Source: Chytriomyces cf. hyalinus JEL632 (taxonomy: Eukaryota > Chytridiomycota > Chytridiomycetes > Chytridiales > Chytriomycetaceae). Taken from it: 64,000 bases of DNA. Positions within the stretch are counted from its first letter, which is position 1, and each line of letters opens with the position of its first letter. Below, piece by piece: positions 1 to 40,970 of this stretch. The notes below the pieces were generated by a model. It did not search any database and was not told the origin of the DNA. It saw only the letters and a program-made list of their open reading frames with translations. The stretch spans positions 186,001-250,000 of the forward strand of contig JAIWWG010000005.1 of NCBI GenBank assembly GCA_025435555.1, read 5' to 3'. Both the position numbers and the translations under genes were made by a program.

Positions 1-368
1 CGGTGACGTACGTTGCCTTGGTTTGCCTCTCGGCCGTTTCAACGCTGGTCTCGCTCATGCTGTACTCAAGACTCAAGCACATCAACCAACTGCAGTCCAT
101 GCAGTCATCCTCCGCTGCTAAATCATTGACCTTGTCAAGTGCCACAGCTCGAGCTACCGTTGTACCATTCCCCTTTCATACGCACAAGCAATCCGACATT
201 CCTTCGAATGCAATCACGGCCCGCTCAAAGCCCAAGCTGACCATGTCCATTTACATGGGCGACGAGGAAGTCGTGTTCAACCGCAGCGCATTCCGCCCTT
301 CCCACACAAGAGCATCAACCCCTTCATTCTCGTCAAAGGAAACAGTGCTCAGTGAAAGAGATATCTGA
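1..368 (+). CDS. C-terminal part of a single-pass membrane protein (5' end outside window)
   Basis: An open frame enters from the left edge and stops at 366-368 (TGA). Near the edge it encodes a hydrophobic segment of about 20 residues (VALVCLSAVSTLVSLMLYS), followed by a basic, Ser/Thr-rich tail of about 95 residues with no domain I recognise. The membrane segment followed by a cytoplasmic tail resembles the SH3 membrane proteins at 2.6-5.7 kb, but I see no SH3 domain here. The true start and any upstream exons are not in the window. It lies 75 bases before the FERM gene on the same strand. Function unknown. Confidence 0.5.
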   Translation, partial: VTYVALVCLSAVSTLVSLMLYSRLKHINQLQSMQSSSAAKSLTLSSATARATVVPFPFHTHKQSDIPSNAITARSKPKLTMSIYMGDEEVVFNRSAFRPSHTRASTPSFSSKETVLSERDI

Positions 369-443
369 AAAGTCTTGTTCCCTTTTTTTTTTTTGAAATC
401 AATAATAAAAAACCTGACAATTCCTCCCTGTTTACTCTCGACC

Positions 444-2491
444 ATGTTCCACATCCAAAACGTAGCCCTTCCTCAGAAATGCGTTACAGCTCAAAGCATC
501 TCACATCATCCGAAAGAATGGCAGCCTGCCGTGCAAGAAAACATTGACCCCATCAGTAACGAAGTAACCCACACAAGTGTCAAAGTTCGTCTGCTGCTTG
601 GAGACTCGTTCTTGGACGTACATCAGCGGTACCCATCGGGTCCAATTTACTGCGAGGACGTGTGTGCGAGCGTTGTTGAAAGACAAGGCATTTCGCAGGT
701 GATACTGGTGGTCATGTACCCATTGTAAAGATAGAAGTCTTCCTATTGACCCAGTGGCCTACAACAGGATGCTGCAGGACTGTTTGCGTTATGGATTGTT
801 GGCAAGGATTTGGGTGAGGGAATGATACATCGACTTGATGGGAAGGGATGCTTTACTGATGGTGTGCTTGTCAGAAATTCAAATCCGACCCAAAGCCAAT
901 ATTCTTAAAGTTGTGCAGGACTGGAACGCACTGGTTGTCAAGTACACTCATTACCCACAGGCAGTGGATCCGGACCACATGTTTAACCGGTACTGGCTCA
1001 TCTTTCGACGCGAGGCAAGCGTCTGCAAAAAGGTTGAGCGGGATATTTCATTGAAAGATGGGATTGCGCTCAAGATGCTGTTTGGAGAGGTTTATTATTC
1101 GTTTCTCTGAAGCCTTTGTTTCTTTCAAGACTGGCACTGATTGCTAACGTTTCTCAGGCTAAACGCAACATTCTCACGGGGCGGTATCCTTGCACTGTAA
1201 AAGATGCTGCCAATTTGGCTGCACTGCAACTTCAGGCATCCATCGGGAACTATGATCCACTCCGATGCCCTCGCGGATACATTTCGTAAGTTCATGCATC
1301 TTCCCAGCAGCACTTCACCCCCAACCACCCAATCTCTGAAGCTCTGACCCCCATTGAACATTCCTTCAACAACAGAAAGAATAAAGCACTCATGACTTCT
1401 CTCCTCTCTTCCCGAATAATCCGCAAAAAGTCTGCCGGCACTTGGGAACGCATCATTATGGCTGAGCATCAACGACTGGACCAAGTTTCGTGCCGAAGGG
1501 CACAAATCTGTTTTTTGGATTACGTGCGGCAATGGCGGTGCTACGGGTGTTCGTTTTTCCCGGTTTCAAGGGACCAACCACCGGCCGGGTTTTTCGAATT
1601 TCGCGTGCAGAAATGGATGGCGGGAGTTGGACCAGATGGAATCGTTGTATTTGAGCGGGACAGAACGGTGAGTTGGAAAGCGTATTGTTTATTTTTTTTA
1701 TGTGTTCATACTGACACACGTTTCAGTCAAGCTACAAATTCATTGACATCTGGCCAAACATCCAATGGATCCACGGCCAAGACACGTTCATCATCTACGA
1801 CGCTTTCAGCAACAACCACCAGTTCAAACTCATTACCCCTCAAGCCGAACTGATGCATAATCTGGCAGCTAGAATCGCGCACCTCGTGCGCAAGGGAACC
1901 ATGAAGGCAGTCAGTTCCAGCGCTGTCTGGAGACCATTGGACGATTTGGCTGCGATATTGAGGCTACACCCTGCAGCGAGTGTGCAGCTAAAGAATTCGA
2001 ATGGTTCCAAAAGCATTTTGTCGCTTGGCTCCAGAAGCGTGTTGGCTTTGGACGAATCCAAAAAGAATCAGGAATTCGATACAATCAAAAAGGATGATTT
2101 TAACGTCGGCAGTGGGTCCACAGTGTTCTTGTCCGAAGCAGGAAAACAGTCGAAATCATCCATACGACAGATTGAAGTCACACTGGAAGATGAGGCGGGA
2201 ACGACGGTGTTGGATGATGTTGCATCCAAGAATGAGGATCAAAAGGCATCGCAGGAAGTTGTGACGCCGATTGTTGCTGCTGCTGACGCGTGTGAAGCTG
2301 TGCCTGCTGTTACTCTGGACAGTCCAGCTTTACAGGATGTTCAGAAGGAAGCAGAGCGAGATGGGTCAAAGACGGAACGGATGTATCTTCCCTCAAAGAC
2401 GCGCTCACGAGCACCGTCCGCCCTTTCAAGCTTCCAGTCAGCGAGTATTCAGACGGATCGGGGACGGAAAAACTCAAACACTCCGAAATAA
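444..2491 (+). CDS. FERM-domain protein, six exons, 566 aa
   Basis: Exons read as 444-698, 768-813, 875-1089, 1158-1285, 1376-1667 and 1727-2491. All borders are GT..AG, phases agree, and the sum is 1701 nt. The spliced product starts with a ubiquitin-like F1 lobe (SVKVRLLLGDSFLDVHQRYP, about residues 45-105). A helical F2 lobe follows, containing RYWLIFRRE, LKMLFGEAKRNILTGRYPC and LAALQLQASIGNYD. An F3 (PH/PTB-like) lobe then has FFEFRVQKW, GIVVFERD and FIDIWPNIQWIHG. The last 190 or so residues are low-complexity and acidic/Ser-rich. FERM lobes link membranes or receptors to the cytoskeleton or small GTPases; the F2 motif recalls KRIT1/FRMD8-type FERMs, but assignment to a subfamily is a guess. 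FERM proteins are rare in fungi. The neighbours are membrane proteins with cytoplasmic SH3 domains. Confidence 0.72.
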
Positions 2492-2629: not shown

Positions 2630-3115
2630 TTATGCTGTCAAATAGTTGCTGGGACACAGCCCTTGCTTCCCCGTTCGCGCATTGTGGCCCATAATCCATC
2701 CATCATCAAACCATTTCTCAACCATGATTACGTCCCCCACATGAATCTCGAGTTCGTCTGGATTCACAGGCATATACCCTGCAATAACTGTCGCTTTCGT
2801 CCCCGGTTCTATTAGAGGTACAGTGTCCGTGATGACCGAACCCTTGCTCCGACTCCACACTGTCAGCGACCTCTGAAACACGCTGAACCGATCGCTGGCT
2901 GTATTGGAGGCTATCGAAGTACGCCGCGAGTCGTTTAGTAGTTGTCTCTCCGCATCTGAACCAGTGAAGTTTGAATTGTAGTTGGGAGTCTTCAAGCTCT
3001 GCTGGACGGCATGCGAGCGACTGATCAGCACCGACAGGACAATTGAGATGGACGCCAGAACTCCAAACACAGCGAAGCCAGCAATGTGGGACGGGGGCAG
3101 CAGGGGAGTGGACAT
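2630..3115 (-). CDS. Single-pass membrane protein with C-terminal SH3 domain, 161 aa
   Basis: The first ATG is at 3115; the frame extends upstream without an ATG. Residues about 10-32 form a transmembrane segment (AGFAVFGVLASISIVLSVLI). A Ser/Asn-rich linker follows, then an SH3 domain from about residue 107 to the end: ATVIAGYMPVNPDELEIHVG, then WFDDGWIMGHN and a closing GLCPSNYLTA. The Asp/Glu-rich RT loop, the Trp of the binding surface and the terminal SNY are present, so it should bind proline-rich ligands on the cytoplasmic side. It is convergent with the FERM gene, whose stop is 139 bases away. It belongs to the local family with the genes at 4252 and 5187. No ectodomain is visible, so an unseen 5' exon is possible. 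Confidence 0.65.
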   Translation of the reverse strand: MSTPLLPPSHIAGFAVFGVLASISIVLSVLISRSHAVQQSLKTPNYNSNFTGSDAERQLLNDSRRTSIASNTASDRFSVFQRSLTVWSRSKGSVITDTVPLIEPGTKATVIAGYMPVNPDELEIHVGDVIMVEKWFDDGWIMGHNARTGKQGLCPSNYLTA

Positions 3116-3830: not shown

Positions 3831-4010
3831 CCCGAGGTGGTCAAAATCCTGTGGGCCAAGAAGGTGTCAGCTTCACTGCAGCAGTTTCTGATGAGTTGGA
3901 CCTTGTTGAGGAGACTTGCTGAATATGCAGGAAACTTTTGATGACGGCTGGATAATGAGGCTGGATGAGAGTGAAATGGGGCGTCTGGACTGTTTTCTTG
4001 TAGCGTGTTT
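3831..4010 (+). pseudogene. Decayed SH3-domain fragment
   Basis: One frame reads GVSFTAAVSDELDLVEETC then stops (TGA at about 3920). The next frame resumes with ETFDDGWIMRLDE and GRLDCFLVACL. Laid against the intact neighbours (PDELEIHVGD..WFDDGWIMGHN..GLCPSNYL), the two halves form one SH3 domain broken by a stop and a frame change. The order DELxL, FDDGWIM, then hydrophobic closing strand is preserved. No transmembrane segment is attached in a readable frame. It lies between the intact SH3 genes at 2630 and 4252, so it is most simply a dead tandem copy. A hidden intron inside the SH3 domain is the alternative explanation. Confidence 0.55.
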
Positions 4011-4251
4011 AAGAAACATGCACTTTCGCCGACAAGGAAAGACGGGCGTTAATAGAACGTGTAAAACTGACAAGCAGCCAGCTGCCAAGTATGCATGCAG
4101 CCATCTGCGCTTACGCGTTAAGCATGCGTGGCTGTGAATCGGCAATGTCCGCGTTTCTGTCGGTACAACCCTTTCGAACACGGCAACGGCGAACAGCTGA
4201 TTCGGCGTTGAAGCAAAAAAGAATTTCATCCCATTCAAAAAAAAAAAAAAC

Positions 4252-5037
4252 ATGAAAGTGCAAACAACTCCGCTTCTCATCCACATCTTCATCTGTCTCA
4301 GTCGTGCAAGCATCCAAGAAAAGGCCCAGCGCATACTTCAGCACAATCCGCAACTCCTTGTTGGCCCGGCGGACCCCCTCAACGCCAATCCCGCTACCGG
4401 ACCACCAGCACTCAAAGGCAATGCTCAAGTCAAAGCTGCCTTGATTGACTTCCTGCAGGTCTCCACTGCTTCACTTGCATCCACAGCCGCTCCGGCAACA
4501 TCAAGCACTGCATCCGTGCCTGCACCTTCAACCTCAGCAACAACCACAACATCTGCCGCAAACCCACCAACAAATGCCAATGGTGAAAACCTTGGTTCAT
4601 CACCCACACCGACTGCATCTTCTCCATCTGTTTCTACTACTTCACTCAGCCCATTCATTATTGGAATCATTGTCTTTGCAAGTGTTGCATTCATCGGAAT
4701 CATAACGGCGGTTATTTACTACCACCGCCGTCGGTCATCTCCGAGCCAATTCTCTCAACTCCATGCAGTCGACTCGTCTGTCGAACCCATGATTCCCGCG
4801 CCCAAAGCGGAGGGATACCGTGGAGTGCCGTATTTGCCGCTGATGAACCCAATGAAGGTGCTCAAAGCCAAAAAGGTGGTGTTTCAATACACTGCTGCGA
4901 ATGAAGACGAGTTGAGTTTGGAGATTGGAGAACTGGTGGATGTGACGGAGGTGGTGGATGAAAACTTTGCGCGTGGAGTTGTGTTGCGCAGTGGGAAGGA
5001 AGGAGTGTTTCCGCGCATTTGCGTGGAGAAGTTTTGA
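4252..5037 (+). CDS. Type I membrane protein with cytoplasmic SH3 domain, 261 aa
   Basis: The start ATG at 4252 follows a 14-A run. Residues 1-20 are a probable signal peptide (VQTTPLLIHIFICLS). The ectodomain is short, then strongly Ser/Thr/Ala/Pro-rich (about residues 70-130), typical of O-glycosylated stalks. A transmembrane helix spans about 132-155 (FIIGIIVFASVAFIGIITAV) and is followed by YYHRRR. An SH3 domain closes the protein (about 205-258): VVFQYTAANEDELSLEIGE, VDENFARGVVLRSGKEGVFP. The layout (signal, mucin-like stalk, single pass, SH3) suggests a surface sensor or scaffold that recruits proline-rich partners; it loosely recalls Sho1, which has four passes. The canonical DDGW in the n-Src/beta-c region is NFARG here, so ligand binding may differ from its paralogues. 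Confidence 0.72.
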   Translation: MKVQTTPLLIHIFICLSRASIQEKAQRILQHNPQLLVGPADPLNANPATGPPALKGNAQVKAALIDFLQVSTASLASTAAPATSSTASVPAPSTSATTTTSAANPPTNANGENLGSSPTPTASSPSVSTTSLSPFIIGIIVFASVAFIGIITAVIYYHRRRSSPSQFSQLHAVDSSVEPMIPAPKAEGYRGVPYLPLMNPMKVLKAKKVVFQYTAANEDELSLEIGELVDVTEVVDENFARGVVLRSGKEGVFPRICVEKF

Positions 5038-5186: not shown

Positions 5187-5744
5187 ATGCAACTGCCGCT
5201 CTTCCTGGCCGCTCTTCTCGTGGCCTGTGTCTCTGCCAACATCAGCAACGTCGTCGTGCGAAAGTCTTCACTGCCACCACACAACAACCATCCCTTTGCC
5301 AACTTTGGCGCAAAGCTGGCAGCGCTTCAAGGACCGAATGATCCTGCCGCTTCGAACTCATCCGCTCCTTCAACTCCGTCATCAGGTCTCGGCGGTGGTG
5401 CTATCGCGGGAATCGCCGTCGGCGGAGTCGTTGCTATTGTAGCTGTAGTTGGTGGTGTCTATGCCCTTCGACGCAGGAGCATGAAGAAATTCAATAATGG
5501 AGTAACGGGTATCGAGGGCGGGTATGTGAAAGTGAGTGGAAGCACTGGCGGTCAGGGAGCGCCACTGTCATCTCTTCGTTCAGTGGTGAAAGGATTCAAC
5601 CCGACGCGTGACGATGAGCTGACATTGTTCTTGGGAGACCAGGTCCGGGTAGTGGAGCGCCATGACGATGGATGGGGAAGAGGAATCGTGAAACGAACTG
5701 AGGGCGAGGGTTACTTCCCGCTGAGCGTTGTCGGCGAGAGGTGA
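5187..5744 (+). CDS. Type I membrane protein with cytoplasmic SH3 domain, 185 aa
   Basis: It is a single-exon gene with ATG at 5187. A clear signal peptide comes first (MQLPLFLAALLVACVSA). The ectodomain is only about 50 residues and ends in a Ser/Pro stretch. A Gly/Ala/Val-rich transmembrane helix spans about 71-94 and is followed by RRRSMKK. The SH3 domain fills the C-terminus (about 131-183): VVKGFNPTRDDELTLFLGDQ, VVERHDDGWGRGI, EGYFPLSVV. All usual SH3 landmarks (acidic RT loop, DDGW, GYFPxxxV) are intact. It is tandem with the 4252 gene (149 bases between). Probably an adaptor-like surface receptor; ligand and partner unknown. Confidence 0.75.
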   Translation: MQLPLFLAALLVACVSANISNVVVRKSSLPPHNNHPFANFGAKLAALQGPNDPAASNSSAPSTPSSGLGGGAIAGIAVGGVVAIVAVVGGVYALRRRSMKKFNNGVTGIEGGYVKVSGSTGGQGAPLSSLRSVVKGFNPTRDDELTLFLGDQVRVVERHDDGWGRGIVKRTEGEGYFPLSVVGER

Positions 5745-5952: not shown

Positions 5953-6952
<1,000 letters not shown>

Positions 6953-7479: not shown

Positions 7480-8194
7480 TGTTACTTTATTACAGAATAA
7501 GCGCATTAGATTTTTGGCCTAGTTTCTTAGTGTTCTTTTTGTTTCAATTCATTTTTCGCATGGTTCAACTTTCCTTATCGCTGAAGCTTCCAGAAACTTC
7601 CCTTGAAAACAAACTATAAAAACTCCACCTTCTCAATAAAGAACCAACAGAATCTTCCACATCCTGAATAACTGAGCCCAATTCCGTGTCATATTTACAA
7701 AAATTAAAGGGGATAAAGAAAAGAACAATGCAGGTTCTGTCAGTGTGCTGTTCACTGATTTCCTTCACAGTTGCACATGATCCTGTTTTGTTGCCAATAG
7801 GAAGAGCATCTCTGCGTAAAATCGCTGTATTCTGTATGTTGTATCTGTGTGCATTCACGTTTTTGCCAAATTTAGCATTTAGCATGGCATTCACGCTTTT
7901 GAAAGGGGGTCTAAAACCACGCTGTCTGCAGAGACTGGTACAGGGCATCCAACGGCCTACATTCCCTCTCACCTTCCACAACGTGGGAAGCATTACCCAT
8001 TTTGCTGAGGGACAAACGATTCTTTGCTTGAGACACAGGATCGGCGCATTGGGATCAACGAAGATGAGCTGTCCCTGCAAAATGCTGGGCTGCAAAGGTT
8101 GCTGTTTTGAAAGAGGTGTGGTCTTGATACATGCGGTAGTGGGCTGCCATTTGCTGTGCATGCATTTTAAATCGTTGGTCTGTTTTACCGTCAG
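7480..8194. other. Possible 5' part of the LRR gene
   Basis: No complete exon could be fixed. Two things stand out. Around 7809-7880 a frame encodes a signal-peptide-like run (FCMLYLCAFTFLPNLAF). Around 7937 another frame reads DWYRASNGLHSLSPSTTWE, which resembles the N-terminal cap of plant/fungal-type LRR proteins (xxFYxATNGxxWTxNTxW). These could be leading exons of the LRR gene that starts in earnest at 8195. The 7806-7870 part also resembles 41629-41695 downstream of the third histone cassette. Confidence 0.35.
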
Positions 8195-9033
8195 CTCAAA
8201 AATGTCCGAATGGAACTTTCCTCCAATACAGAAACGAAACTTCCAGAGGCCATCATTCACCTGACTGCGGTTGAGGAAGTCAGAATTTCTCACTGCAAAC
8301 TCACAGGCAACATTCCAGATGGAATTGGTGCACTGCAAAACTTGGCGCGTCTGAAATTGAGTCACAATTCTTTGACGGGAATGCTTCCAAGCTCGTTCAA
8401 TCTGCTGTCTGGACTACAATGGCTTAATCTATCCTTTAATCAACTGAGTGGAGACTTTCCCGCCTTGCCAAATTTGCAGGCGCTCGACTTTCTGTACATT
8501 GACAGCAATCGGTTCACAGGTCCCATTCCAACCGTGTTTGGCAATCCTCGTGCGTTGACATGGTATTCTCTGCGAGAAACCTCTTCAATGCCATCCCTGC
8601 AACCATCAGTCAGCTCACAAGTGTGTACTTTCTGCACATTAGCGATAACCCGATTGCAAGCGAAATACCTCCTGAACTTTGGACCCTGACAACCCTGACG
8701 AGCTTGGAGATGAGCAACTGCAAGTTGTTTGGATCGCTTGTGGGTGTGGGAAACTTGCGCAATCTTGGGTCTCTGGACGTGACAAACAATCAATTAAGTG
8801 GAGAGCTACCGTCCCGCGAAATTTGTAGCTTGCAGCTGGAATCTTTGCATTTGCGTCGAAATCGGTTCTCTGCCGGCGAAATACTGGACATGACGGGGAC
8901 TAACTTGGATGAAATGTGTTTGGATCCTGAAAACCAAAGATATCTTGTGATAGAGGAAGATGACCTTCTGTGCCAAGTTGACTATATGTGTGATTCGGTA
9001 CACAAAGTGTTCCCTCACATTGGAGACTCCTGA
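8195..9033 (+). pseudogene. Leucine-rich-repeat protein interrupted by a one-base frameshift
   Basis: After an acceptor-like TTTTACCGTCAG, the frame encodes tandem 23-24 residue plant-type LRRs (LKLSHNSLTGMLPSSFNLLS, LQWLNLSFNQLSGDFPALPN, LDFLYIDSNRFTGPIPTVFG). At 8576-8580 the reading breaks: LRRs continue in another frame (NLFNAIPATISQLTSVYFLH, LEMSNCKLFGSL, LGSLDVTNNQLSGELP) to a stop at 9031-9033. One extra A in GAGAAACC would restore the repeat without loss, so the break is either a true inactivating deletion or a sequencing error in a short A run. No transmembrane or kinase domain follows. LRR ectodomains of this kind usually act in recognition at the cell surface. Confidence 0.65.
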
Positions 9034-24979: not shown

Positions 24980-25979
<1,000 letters not shown>

Positions 25980-27278: not shown

Positions 27279-30200
27279 TTAAACTTTGAATTTGTGAAAG
27301 AAAGACGCAACCTTCCCCTCCTCTCTCTCAGGTATAAATCCACTCACGTGGACTTGCCGCGACTTGGTCTTCCCGATGCACGCTAACAACAGAATCAGCT
27401 GCGCGTTACTATTAGTCCGAAAAGGTATTCTTACATTTCAGGATGGTAAGTGCTGCGTCCACAGGGTCTGCTTCCACCGGCAGGTCCGCTGGAATCCAAC
27501 GTCATGTTCAGCATTCAACATAACTCTACCGATATAGAAAGAGCAGCAACGAACCTGGTCCATCTGCGTATCCATTCCGAACGAGAATTTGGAGCATTTT
27601 AGGCGCAAATTCAGTGCTCATGACAATGACGTTGCTAATGTTGTGCCATTCTTCGTCCGTGATTGCGTTGGAGACGCTCAACTCACTAAACTGGACAACT
27701 GTTCGTTTGAAAGCAAAAGAGCAACATTAAGAAACAAAAACAAACAACTCGCGCATCAAACAATACACGTACGTTTGATTTCAACGTCCTTGCTTACAAC
27801 ACTCCAAACTGGTTTCATGTACTTTTCGACAAGTTTCGGCGGTTCTTTTTCGAATCGATCCACCAAGCACAACACTTTACGCGAGATTGCCTTTTCCGGG
27901 GAAACTACAAAAAAAAAGGATGGGTCTGGGTCTTCGTTTTTTGGAAAAGCATCGTTGAGTAAGTTGTGCGTACCTGCTCCATAAACAAGCTTCATGAGAC
28001 CCTCTACCCACGCCTTTGCTTTCTCTGGCGCTCCTTCCAAAGTGAACTCAAGTTCTCTGAACTTGGAACCGGACTTTCCCTTTTCTCGAGGAACGCACGC
28101 ATAAACTTTGACGTCCGTTTTCCCGGCTGTACATTCGGCTTTAACAATTCGGCGAAGTTCCAGTTGCGGGAACACTGGCTTGTTTGCTGAAGGTTGTAGT
28201 TTGCGTTAGTGCTGTTTGATATTTCCGTTTCATGAATGGGGAATTTACATTTCTTGTCCACACACGCCAATTGCATGTTGTCTAAGCGCAGCTGGCATTT
28301 TGACTTTTCATGAACTGCATCGACCAACATCTGTTCATCAACACACGGCGTGGTTAGTTACCATCTCGGCAAATGCTTTACCTCCCCTACCTCTTCTGCT
28401 GAAGGCATTGCCACCTTGGCGGCTTGTTCATCCGGCTTCTTTTTAACTTGAGTGGCGGAATCTGTGGATACATTCTGATTGGCTACCGCGGTCACAGTTT
28501 CTGTCTTTGCTTTTTCCTGAAGTCTCAGTTTTTCTTTTTCGGCGGGCGTCGGTTGCAGCGTCACGCCGGAGACAGCCTCTACCTTCGCGGGGGTAACAGT
28601 GACAGGAACGACCGAGCTTTTACCAACAGTTGACGTAATACTGGACCTACTCTTTTCCTGCCCAAGAGCCGCCGTAAGGTTATGATTGGAGCTGCGGAAA
28701 GCGCCTGGTTGAGCGGCCCAGAGTTCCTTGGGGCTGACTGCCTCTTCGTGTACCCCACTTTCTCTTGATTTGCTTAGCACGCTGTTTTGTGTGTTGATGG
28801 TGGGTTGTCGGGCGGATGCCGCCAATTCGTCGGCTTTCATTTGATCCATCGCGTTCATAAATTTGGATTTCTTTGGCGCTGGGTCAACGGCTGTGGGGTT
28901 CACATTTGGAAGCACTGCTGTCGCTGTTGCTTGCGCTTTGGGTGGTTCTGATAAACCTGTATTTTGTTCGAGTTTTATCGACGACGCTTCTGTGGGCGTC
29001 GCCATGGACTGCGGTTTGTCAATAGGTACAGCTGCCATAACTTCTGAAGCCTTCGAAACAGACTGGTCTTGACCTCCGACAGAATTCGCTGAAACTGCAG
29101 TGTTTGCTCCTGATGGAAGAACAGCCTCGGATGAGGCCGACTTCTTCTGTGGAGTTTCTTTTTTCTCTTGGGCCATATTAAGAAGACTCTTTTTGGAGTC
29201 CGAGCTTATGCTCGCTGCTTTCGAATCCACCGCTTTGTTAATCGGCACGGTCGTGAGCGCATCTTTCGCGAGGCTGTCTTTTGATTTCGACTGTTCACCT
29301 GCATGTTTGGGGTCATCTGCTTTTGGAACAGACACTGCGACCATTTCAGTGCGACTTGTCCGAGTGTCTTTTCCGAGACCTTCTGTTGATGCCGGTTTCA
29401 GAACTTGTATCACATGGTTGGCTGTGGAGATTGGTGTTTTGATTTCTTCCACAGTTGCAACAGGTGCCGCATGCACATTTTCTTCGCTTTTTAGCTTCGT
29501 CGGGTTGTTGAAGTCCTTGGAAAGGGATGCGACTGAGGCTTTCATGGAAACAGGCCGACTGCCTTGTCGTGAGTTTAGAGAAAGTTTTGAACTCAATGAA
29601 GGTTTTGAGCTCGCATCAGGTGTTGGTGGAGCTGCTGTGCTTGGTAGCGGAGCGACCTTTGACGATGTGGGTGCTGTGACTGGCACTTGGTCTGCGGACA
29701 TCACACTCCTTGACTTTTGTGAAGCAATCGACTCGTTGGAGGTTTGCTCGCGCGGTTTGATATCATGCGTGGCAGTTTGGGTAGTCATGGGTGTACTGGC
29801 ATTTACGCTATTCTCGGGTTCTTGAGCAGTGCTCGCGGTAGGAAGAATGCCGGTATTTGTTGGTGTTTCGGGTTTTCGATCCACCGCAGACTCTTTTAGA
29901 GATGATTTCGATGTCAAAGCATCGCTGCTTGCCTTGCGCGATTCGTTGGCATGTGGGTTGTGAATTGGACTTTCATTGTCGGTTACCGCTGGTTTTTCAG
30001 CCAACGGTTTCAAGGATTGCCTGCTTGACTTTGCCGATTTTGACTCTGGTTCCCTTTGAATCGAGTTGTCCATGTCGGAACGGGAAGGTTTTACCGACTT
30101 TTGCGATTCTGCGGAAATGCTGTGATGCGATGATCCAGTCATTTTTTCAACAACAGCTTTCATCCCCAACGTGAGCGACTTGGCGGACATGTGCTTCTTT

Positions 30201-33023
30201 TGAGAAGTCCCAGAAGAATGGTCGGTGTCTTCTTCTTGAAGACGATCCATCGACGGTTTTAGCGATGCTGGCTTTGATTCATTCAAACTAGACTTGAGGA
30301 CTTCATCCGAGGCTCTGGTTTCTGAATTTGAATTTGTTTTGCTGTCTTGATCACGGTCGTGACCGCTTCTTAGTTTTAGAAACAATGAAGATGAACTTGT
30401 AGATGCGGATTTGCTGCTGGAATTGAAGATTTTTGAACTTTTCCGTTCTCCGGTCGATGCATCACGTGGTGCGCTGGTAACTGACTCTCGGCTATGATTC
30501 GCGGAGGTTGGGCTTATGGAAGCATCCTGAGTTGCCTTTTTCCGAGGGGATGACTCTCGCTGCGAGTGGATACTTTCTTCAACTGCTTTGGAAGGTGTGG
30601 AACGAGTCTCTGCAAGGATAACAGTTTCCGACGGCGCAAGAGGATAAGAAGCGGTAGTCACCATCTCTTTGGATTCAGCTGCCCAGGCATTCATCAAAAT
30701 ATCCGTTTCTGCAACGATTGAGCCTTTTTGTAACACTGCAGCTTGTTTCAATGAATCTTGGCTGGTACGAGATGATTTTGGTGTTTGCTGCTGCGAAACA
30801 GACTCGGGTAATACTTTATCTGTAGTTTGACCCGTGTTTTCCGACGCGGAGGGTTTCGATTCAAAGACGTGTACAGGTTCAGCTACTGGCATTATCACTG
30901 GCTCGCCCCAATTGGGCTCCTCTAAACCGTCAATAGCAAGGGCTGCAATCGGAGTAAGAGATCTTACGACAGGCAGCGAAGCAGTTTCGGATGAAAGACT
31001 TTTTGTTGACGCAGCCAGTTCCTCTCTGGACTTGGACAGCATAGTTTTGAAAGAATCCAGAATGGGGTTCGAGTCCATTTCTGACGGTTCTGTGTCTGGT
31101 TCTGTGACCATTGATTGTCGTTCGAGCAGTTTAAGGTATGATGCCTCTTTTTTGTCTTCCTTCGTTGGCGCAAGCGAGCTTTCGCCTGGCGGCTCGAATG
31201 TCTTGGCGTCCATGTCACGTACTGGAATGGATTCACTGGCCATGTCAGGTTGCCGCGTGGACGCGTCAGAACCTCGCCGACCCCACTCGTTGTACAACTG
31301 CTTCTTTTCTGCAGCAAGCCATTCGTCACTATCAGTTAATGGCTGACTCTGTTGAATGCTGTCCAGCGAAGTCTGTTCTTCGTTTGCAATGTTCCTAGCT
31401 GAAGATGGGGTTTTTGGCGCAGCATCAGCCGCTGAAGCCCAAGCATCCACTTCCTCGCCCAAATCCAGCGTTGGAATCACTTTTACCCTGCTAGGACTTG
31501 GCTCCGCCTTTGCCGGCGAATCAGCCGGTATATCAGCAAACATTGGACTCTTGAAGCCTAAATTCGACAAATCGGGAGATTGATTTGCGCTGTCCTTTCG
31601 GAATCGCCGACGCTCAGCCGCGCTCATCATCATTGTCCCTTTGACGGGCGATGATACCATGGACAGCCCTTCAAACGCAGCTAGTCCGCTTTCTGAGTTG
31701 AAAACGCGTTCTTTTTCAATGGCTTTTGAAAACTGGGAGACCATCTTGGATTGGGCTCCCATCCCCGGGACAAGCCCCTTTTGCGCGTTCCGTTCGAGGA
31801 CACCTCTACCGCGGAAACTGAGACCACTGCGCCGGATGACGTTAGCAGTGGCGGTCAAGTTTGGATCGGTGGTTGCTGGTTGGTGTGTTGGTTTCTGGTA
31901 GCGAAGAGTGTATTCTTTGGAAAGACGCAGCGTTTTCGAGTTCATGGCAATGCAGGACGCGTGGGCCGAGTGAATCACATCTTGGCTCGAAACTGCGAGC
32001 GTGTTTTTCCATGTCGCCATTCGGACTGAATTATAGAAGAGATGTGTACGCTTTAGCAATGGTTTTTTGCTTTGCGGAAGAAGGAAGTACGCACCAGTTC
32101 GCGGGAACACACGCGCCAGCGCCTTATGACGGCCCAGGCAGTGTACGGGATCATCAGCTGGATTCGCAATGTTTGCCTTGTTCAAGGGCGGAACCGTTGC
32201 TACATACACTGGCGCAATAATTTCTAACCCCAGCTCCGTAAGCACCACTTGTCTCCCATCTTCTGGATCCATGCCATCGTCAAAAGTTTCGAATTCATTG
32301 TAAGATGAACCGCCAAAGAGATACTCGTCAGAATTTTGCGGTGTCGCTTTGTAAGCTGTCGGAGCCCCCTTCAGTTTCTGAGATTCGAAAGTTGAGTTTT
32401 CGAGTCCTGGAATCAAGATTTCACAACTTGCAAAAAGTCACCTGCTGAAGCGGCTTTAATGATCCCGCCCTTGAATGTGACCTTGAAATAGTTGGAGTGG
32501 AAGATTGCGAGGCCATGTACCCATTGAAGCGTGAAACCACCGGTTCGACTCGCTCTCGCGGCTTGCGGACACGTCCTGATGCACCTTCCTCCCGCAAAAG
32601 AAGTTCTTCGACGGGATTATTGTAGATTGCTCGAGGGATGTAGTCAAGGTCATAGTCGTTGCTGTGTGTAGCGATCTGGGGAGTTTTCAAGGTTAGGATG
32701 GGTTTGCGATCGCATGAGGGGGAGCAAGTACCGCTGCAATTTCAGAGATTGACTTGGAGAGTTGCGCTGCTGATGCAGTTGCGGAAAAGTTGGGCGCGGG
32801 TTCCTTCTTGGTTGCCTTGTTCATGTTGTCTCTGTGAAATATGTACGACGCGTTCTAGAACAAAAAAAGGTGCAAGCATATTTATATTATTTACAGGCAG
32901 ACGTTGTTATTACGCTGTAGTTTCTTTGAATTGGAGATCGGCGGGAATGGGTGTGACGGATACGACTGGTGTGGTTGCTAATGCGGCCGGCTCATGTTGG
33001 TGAACGTCGGTCGGCTTGTCCAT
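27279..33023 (-). CDS. Very long disordered protein, C-terminus resembling a degenerate sphingosine kinase
   Basis: The probable start is ATG 33023; 32824 is an alternative. The central exon (about 32416-28370) alone encodes about 1350 residues, overwhelmingly Ser/Thr/Lys/Ala-rich and disordered. The exception is its first 170 residues, which include TELGLEIIAPVYVATVPP and MATWKNTLAVSSQDVIHSAH. Downstream exons give CQLRLDNMQLACVDKK, PVFPQLELRRIVKAECTAG, FRELEFTLEGAPEKAKAWV and ISRKVLCLVDRFEKEPPKLV, followed by NVIVMSTEFAPKMLQILV. This order resembles the N-terminal PH-like part and first lobe of sphingosine kinases, where NPxxGKG and SGDG should stand; here they are DRFEKEP and MSTE. The large exon joins phase 0 to these exons, but a separate gene starting at 28330 is possible. 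The last ~60 residues are uncertain. Confidence 0.5.

Positions 33024-39970: not shown

Positions 39971-40970
<1,000 letters not shown>

Follow-up and report, generated by a model that had tools for sequence, protein, structure and literature searches.

Introduction

KRIT1 and FRMD8 are the two described animal proteins closest to the gene analyzed here, and both carry a FERM domain, a module that one review dates to the ancestor of Amorphea (PMC10830384). Loss of KRIT1 is reported to cause cerebral cavernous malformations (PMC11263069), and FRMD8 is reported to stabilize the iRhom/ADAM17 complex, which sheds TNF (PMC6042961). The FERM domain of KRIT1 itself is described as C-terminal (PMC10830384). 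Here we analyzed a FERM gene at positions 444–2491 of a 64,000-nucleotide stretch of the chytrid Chytriomyces cf. hyalinus JEL632 (contig JAIWWG010000005.1, positions 186,001–250,000), hereafter called the window. The names KRIT1 and FERM domain-containing protein 8 already stand on some database entries, and no paper on a fungal member was found in the open-licence literature among the matches listed.

We consider it reasonably probable that the product of this apparently single-copy gene is a cytosolic FERM adaptor, and that the gene is a chytrid co-ortholog of animal KRIT1 and FRMD8. If true, this would date the KRIT1/FRMD8 adaptor branch to before animals, and would provide a simpler system, free of Nudix domain and ankyrin repeats, for asking what the FERM domain first held.

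Results

A complete FERM domain of the KRIT1/FRMD8 type

The six exons of the gene are joined in frame via GT-AG introns into a product of 566 amino acids, and the Chytriomyces confervae protein P0001 is 97% identical to this product across its whole length, indicating that the six-exon gene proposed in an earlier note, made from the window sequence alone, is real. The Pfam family FERM_M scored 80.3 bits on the window protein against a cut-off of 23.8, and the predicted structure of P0001 displayed the three-lobed F1–F2–F3 fold. Consistently, when solved structures were searched with the single window sequence, KRIT1 came top (E = 4e-16, 62 bits, residues 76–357), followed at a distance by talin (31 bits), myosin VII (25 bits) and ezrin (23 bits). 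The complete FERM domain that the earlier note had claimed was thus borne out by profile hidden Markov model, by match to solved structures and by structure prediction.

The FERM domain lies close to the N-terminus with a tail behind it. The limits of F1 and F3 (Table 1) are approximate, as they were transferred from the P0001 structure model with an offset of 126 residues. Past residue ~376 the model is of low confidence, and this tail is probably disordered. No Nudix domain, ankyrin repeats or other convincing Pfam family was detected in the window protein or among the 18 members of our first homolog alignment (A1, which includes the fish protein P0018), and NCBIfam gave no match for the three proteins tried. 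The NPx[YF] motif is absent from the window protein; P0002 and P0004 each contain one within or near the FERM domain.

Sequence, fold and profiles point to KRIT1 and FRMD8 as the closest FERM proteins. A profile built from 14 named chytrid proteins and one jgi protein, with the fish excluded (A3), scored 94.6 bits on KRIT1, 80.1 on moesin, 77.6 on merlin and ~57 on vertebrate talin chains. The A1 profile separated them further (KRIT1, 130 bits; moesin, 84 bits) and covered KRIT1 through F3. A profile of 10 named chytrids gave 103 bits for fish P0018 and 97 bits for a KRIT1 fragment of 275 residues. P0018 in turn matched KRIT1 with 86 bits, the remaining matches listed having E values of only 0.089 and 0.29; we read P0018 as FRMD8 from its sequence, the source entry carrying no name.

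Similar to FRMD8, the chytrid protein has its FERM domain first and a tail after it, and the chytrids share with P0018 a YGC-x-FF and P-x-x-G signature at the F2–F3 border. They differ from it in their own THYPEA...NRHWFVYRREA stretch between F1 and F2 and in a tail unlike that of P0018. KRIT1 is the nearest solved FERM in sequence and fold, but in KRIT1 the FERM domain is preceded by NPxY/F motifs, ankyrin repeats and a Nudix domain, none of which was detected in the window protein. Ezrin/radixin/moesin (ERM) proteins and merlin score below KRIT1, and no ERM C-terminal family was found among the Pfam matches. Collectively, the product is a FERM protein of the KRIT1/FRMD8 type and not of the ERM, talin or myosin type.

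The genome searched (37.8 Mb in 242 contigs, the window being part of contig C188) contains five FERM_M places, which belong to the gene at 444–2491, a double MyTH4-FERM locus and a talin with middle and I/LWEQ domains. The latter two also have FERM domains but represent other families with rod or MyTH4 parts, and the KRIT1/FRMD8-type gene appears to be single-copy. The double MyTH4-FERM locus, known here from its MyTH4-FERM units and not from a motor, is presumably a myosin XXII-type myosin. The view of the earlier note that FERM domains are largely missing from fungi is therefore too strong for chytrids, as this genome also has talin and two MyTH4-FERM units, and both kinds have been reported in Spizellomyces, talin in one paper (PMC5042518) and myosin XXII, for S. 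punctatus, in another (PMC3942036).

Relatives in five chytrid orders and the position of the animal proteins

Two homolog searches scored ~8000 candidates each (7997 with the sequence query and 7994 with the alignment query). The sequence query yielded 18 proteins, comprising 16 from named chytrids, one jgi protein and one from a fish. The alignment query again returned only chytrid and jgi proteins and one fish protein, adding Chytridium lagenaria, Chytriomyces sp. MP71 and another jgi protein; with this number of candidates scored, the result does not show that the gene is absent from fungi outside the chytrids. Other chytrids thus do carry the gene, as the earlier note had wondered, with relatives in Chytridiales, Spizellomycetales, Rhizophlyctidales, Rhizophydiales and Synchytriales. 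These orders were looked up for seven genera; the remaining order assignments in the tree are ones we assume.

To place the gene, a maximum-likelihood tree was calculated for 20 sequences over 346 columns (LG+G4, unrooted), namely KRIT1, the FRMD8-like P0018, the window protein, 15 named chytrids and two jgi proteins; P0009, P0016, P0022 and the genome's own talin and MyTH4-FERM were left out. KRIT1 and P0018 paired apart from the other 18 sequences with 95% ultrafast bootstrap, so the chytrid gene looks like a co-ortholog of both. Among the chytrids, support was 100 for a group of Geranomyces, Powellomyces and Spizellomyces, 96 for Rhizophlyctis plus Borealophlyctis, and 78 for the separation of the Chytridiales set from all others. 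Since the closest known relatives are animal KRIT1 and FRMD8, this FERM branch probably predates animals, and the origin before the chytrid–animal split that the earlier note had guessed at is the best reading of the evidence.

Several observations weigh against co-orthology. KRIT1 and P0018, each the only sequence of its kind in the tree, both sit on long branches, and the animal pair attaches beside Synchytrium with 54% support, with further weak nodes at 38 and 53; because of these joins, and because the tree is unrooted, we prefer co-orthology as a reading without regarding it as proven. On KRIT1, the A3 profile aligns best over F1 and F2 only. PF24522, the family of the KRIT1/FRMD8 C-lobe, reached 19.4 bits on the window protein, below its cut-off of 29, and matched 10 of the 18 A1 proteins, the fish included (E ≤ 0.01); it found no match in a six-frame scan of the genome, though it matches the spliced protein weakly. 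Finally, a survey of fungal NUDIX proteins considers human KRIT1 probably to lack a fungal ortholog, a judgement made on the Nudix domain (PMC12210691).

The putative ligand groove and the C-terminal tail

Lys475, Lys720 and Lys724 of KRIT1 are reported to be essential for HEG1 binding (PMC10644391), R452E has been used to weaken Rap1 binding, and W688 is placed in the NPxY cleft (PMC8917353). We counted the equivalent residues, each among those sequences that extend over the position in question, with the window and jgi proteins in the set. As in KRIT1, the position of K475 is basic (17/18), and that of K724, one residue past the end of the printed alignment, is Arg in 16 of 17. The equivalent of W487, which we take to line the HEG1 groove, is Trp in all 18 sequences, and that of W688 is Trp in 10 of 16. 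Two departures weigh against the reading put forward here: the K720 place, taken from the A1–KRIT1 alignment, is Asn in 17/17, and the R452 equivalent is Arg in a single sequence of 18, being Gly in the window protein. The groove therefore appears from these alignments to be partly retained with altered details, as would be expected for a ligand other than HEG1, and a link to Rap1 is unsupported by the one Rap1-contact residue tested.

The pattern [LI]-[STAG]-[ST]-F occurs in 10 of the 14 tails examined (shuffle mean 0.65, maximum 5) and is followed by PS in four of these 10; the window copy lies at residues 545–548. As the pattern was chosen with the tails in view and the sequences share ancestry, we regard it as a lead. 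In the mechanism that we consider most likely, the FERM domain would sit on the cytoplasmic side of the plasma membrane as a cortical adaptor, its F1–F3 groove clamping a short peptide from the cytoplasmic tail of a membrane protein, by analogy with KRIT1 and HEG1, and the C-terminal tail with its conserved motif would recruit, or be regulated by, another factor.

Upstream membrane proteins as candidate ligands

The best candidates in hand for such a partner would be the two short single-pass proteins whose genes, A and B (Table 1), lie immediately upstream; we regard these proteins as better candidates than the SH3 proteins on the other side. Gene A encodes a conserved cytoplasmic tail and has no Pfam match. 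In Podochytrium, P0005 is a 395-residue model ending within F2, whose N-terminal part is a homolog of the gene A product (85 bits, 36% identity); the cytoplasmic parts alone scored 153, and none of 500 shuffles exceeded 67. Because a homolog of A is joined to FERM in P0005, the two genes appear to be neighbors in Podochytrium as well. This adjacency rests on one other genus, which weakens the case; the conservation is shallow, Podochytrium and Chytriomyces being members of one family. The match of gene B to P0005 was weaker (a score of 58, where shuffles reached up to 54), the likeness of A and B to each other was barely above that of shuffled sequences (5/500 scoring as high), and no convincing second copy of either gene was found in the genome.

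A fuller proposal is that a single KRIT1/FRMD8 ancestor survives in chytrids beside its own membrane ligand, A or B, whose tail would dock in the F1–F3 groove as HEG1 does, the Nudix domain and ankyrin repeats being later animal additions; taken as a whole, we judge this proposal unlikely. Docking of the gene B tail on the FERM domain within the P0001 model was considered and rejected, because the strand concerned (84–88) lies in a block with a mean predicted local distance difference test (pLDDT) score of 43 and is thus no evidence of docking.

Alternative explanations

The protein might instead serve, like FRMD8, as a chaperone of a rhomboid pseudoprotease and its sheddase and not as a clamp on receptor tails. 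The FRMD8-like layout and the slightly higher profile score of P0018 over KRIT1 are consistent with such a role, and FRMD8 is reported to bind the iRhom N-terminus (PMC6042961). However, the chytrid tail motif fits the P0018 tail no better than shuffles do (1336 of 2000 scored as high), so a match between the two was rejected, and the iRhom N-terminal family found no match in the genome, in which two rhomboid-family places exist. CCM2_C, PDC10_C and NUDIX_5 likewise had no genome match; the scan had no positive control and the genes are split by introns, hence the absence of CCM or iRhom partners is not shown. P0018 as query also found nothing in the same genome. We consider the chaperone role quite unlikely.

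The earlier note had proposed a receptor-to-cytoskeleton module formed by the FERM protein and four or five adjacent genes for single-pass SH3 proteins. The 3.3 kb downstream of the FERM gene contain three intact SH3 membrane genes and one possible broken copy. Their adjacency is not trivial, since places within 1 kb of a listed SH3 match make up ~0.5% of the genome, and class I or II SH3-binding motifs are present in 7 of 20 other homologs. The window FERM protein itself has no such motif, however, and a search with the protein of SH3 neighbor 1, the nearest, found only its own 90% cluster among 86 candidates, which leaves the module unsupported. SH3 genes are moreover numerous and clustered in the genome: with 150 of 220 candidates scored, SH3_9 has at least 149 matches, which fall into 52 clusters. 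The arrangement was seen at a single locus. The neighboring SH3 genes look incidental, and we hold the module to be very unlikely.

Horizontal transfer of the gene from an animal would account for the fact that the only named non-chytrid relatives, among the candidates scored and in an animal-rich structure library, are animal. It is nevertheless hard to credit, as the chytrid sequences, drawn from five orders, are diverse and for the most part cluster by order, so that a transfer, if there was one, would have to be older than the diversification of the phylum.

The least probable account, a membrane-anchored FERM protein read in one frame with the upstream single-pass gene, follows the P0001 and P0005 models, which both join a membrane span to FERM, but is rejected for the window: gene B stops at 366–368 and the FERM gene has its own ATG at 444, the window protein begins MFHI...ALPQK much as P0002, P0004 and P0012 begin MYRV or MFHV and then A[LM]PRK, and at the P0001 junction we saw by eye no AG acceptor, the letters beyond it being out of frame with the ATG. 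In P0001, the fusion of the FERM gene with the membrane gene before it looks like an annotation error.

Table 1 Coordinates of the FERM gene, its neighbors and the other FERM loci of the genome (window positions unless a contig is given)
Feature	Position	Strand	Description
KRIT1/FRMD8-type FERM gene	exons 444–698, 768–813, 875–1089, 1158–1285, 1376–1667, 1727–2491	+	566 aa
FERM domain of its product	residues ~36–376		F1 ~42–132, F2 159–276, F3 ~275–371; tail after ~376
Gene A	C188:184952–185688 (L006 8452–9188), outside the window		198 aa; one predicted span; no SH3
Gene B	1–368	+	124 aa; one predicted span; no SH3; ATG 7 bases before the window (C188:185994)
SH3 neighbor 1	2630–3115	-	161 aa; N-terminal hydrophobic span; SH3 at 111–160; SH3_9 41.6 bits
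Possible frame-broken SH3 remnant	3877–4120	+	frames read by eye; no Pfam match
SH3 neighbor 2	4201–5037	+	278-aa open frame; hydrophobic span (hydropathy); C-terminal SH3; SH3_2 34.4 bits; 5' end provisional
SH3 neighbor 3	5187–5744	+	185 aa; signal-like N-terminus; hydrophobic span (hydropathy); C-terminal SH3; SH3_1 36.8 bits
Double MyTH4-FERM locus	C46:297358–299644 (L008)		
Talin	C52:22311–22689 (L009)		with middle and I/LWEQ domains

Other features of the genome and the window

Arrays of SH3 genes with nearly equal scores and spacing are present at C2:476–506 kb, C13:159–186 kb and C198:131–159 kb. The arrays on these three contigs look like copies of a single long one, arising from recent duplication or from separated haplotypes. 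In the window, near-identical histone H3/H4 regions occur at three dispersed places (5953–6952, 24980–25906 and 40044–40970), and the 308-aa open frames containing H4 at these regions are almost identical letter by letter. Leucine-rich-repeat frames at 8171–9033 possibly represent one gene split by introns. On the minus strand, 28358–32437 is a single open frame of 1359 amino acids, rich in serine and, as judged by eye, apparently largely disordered.
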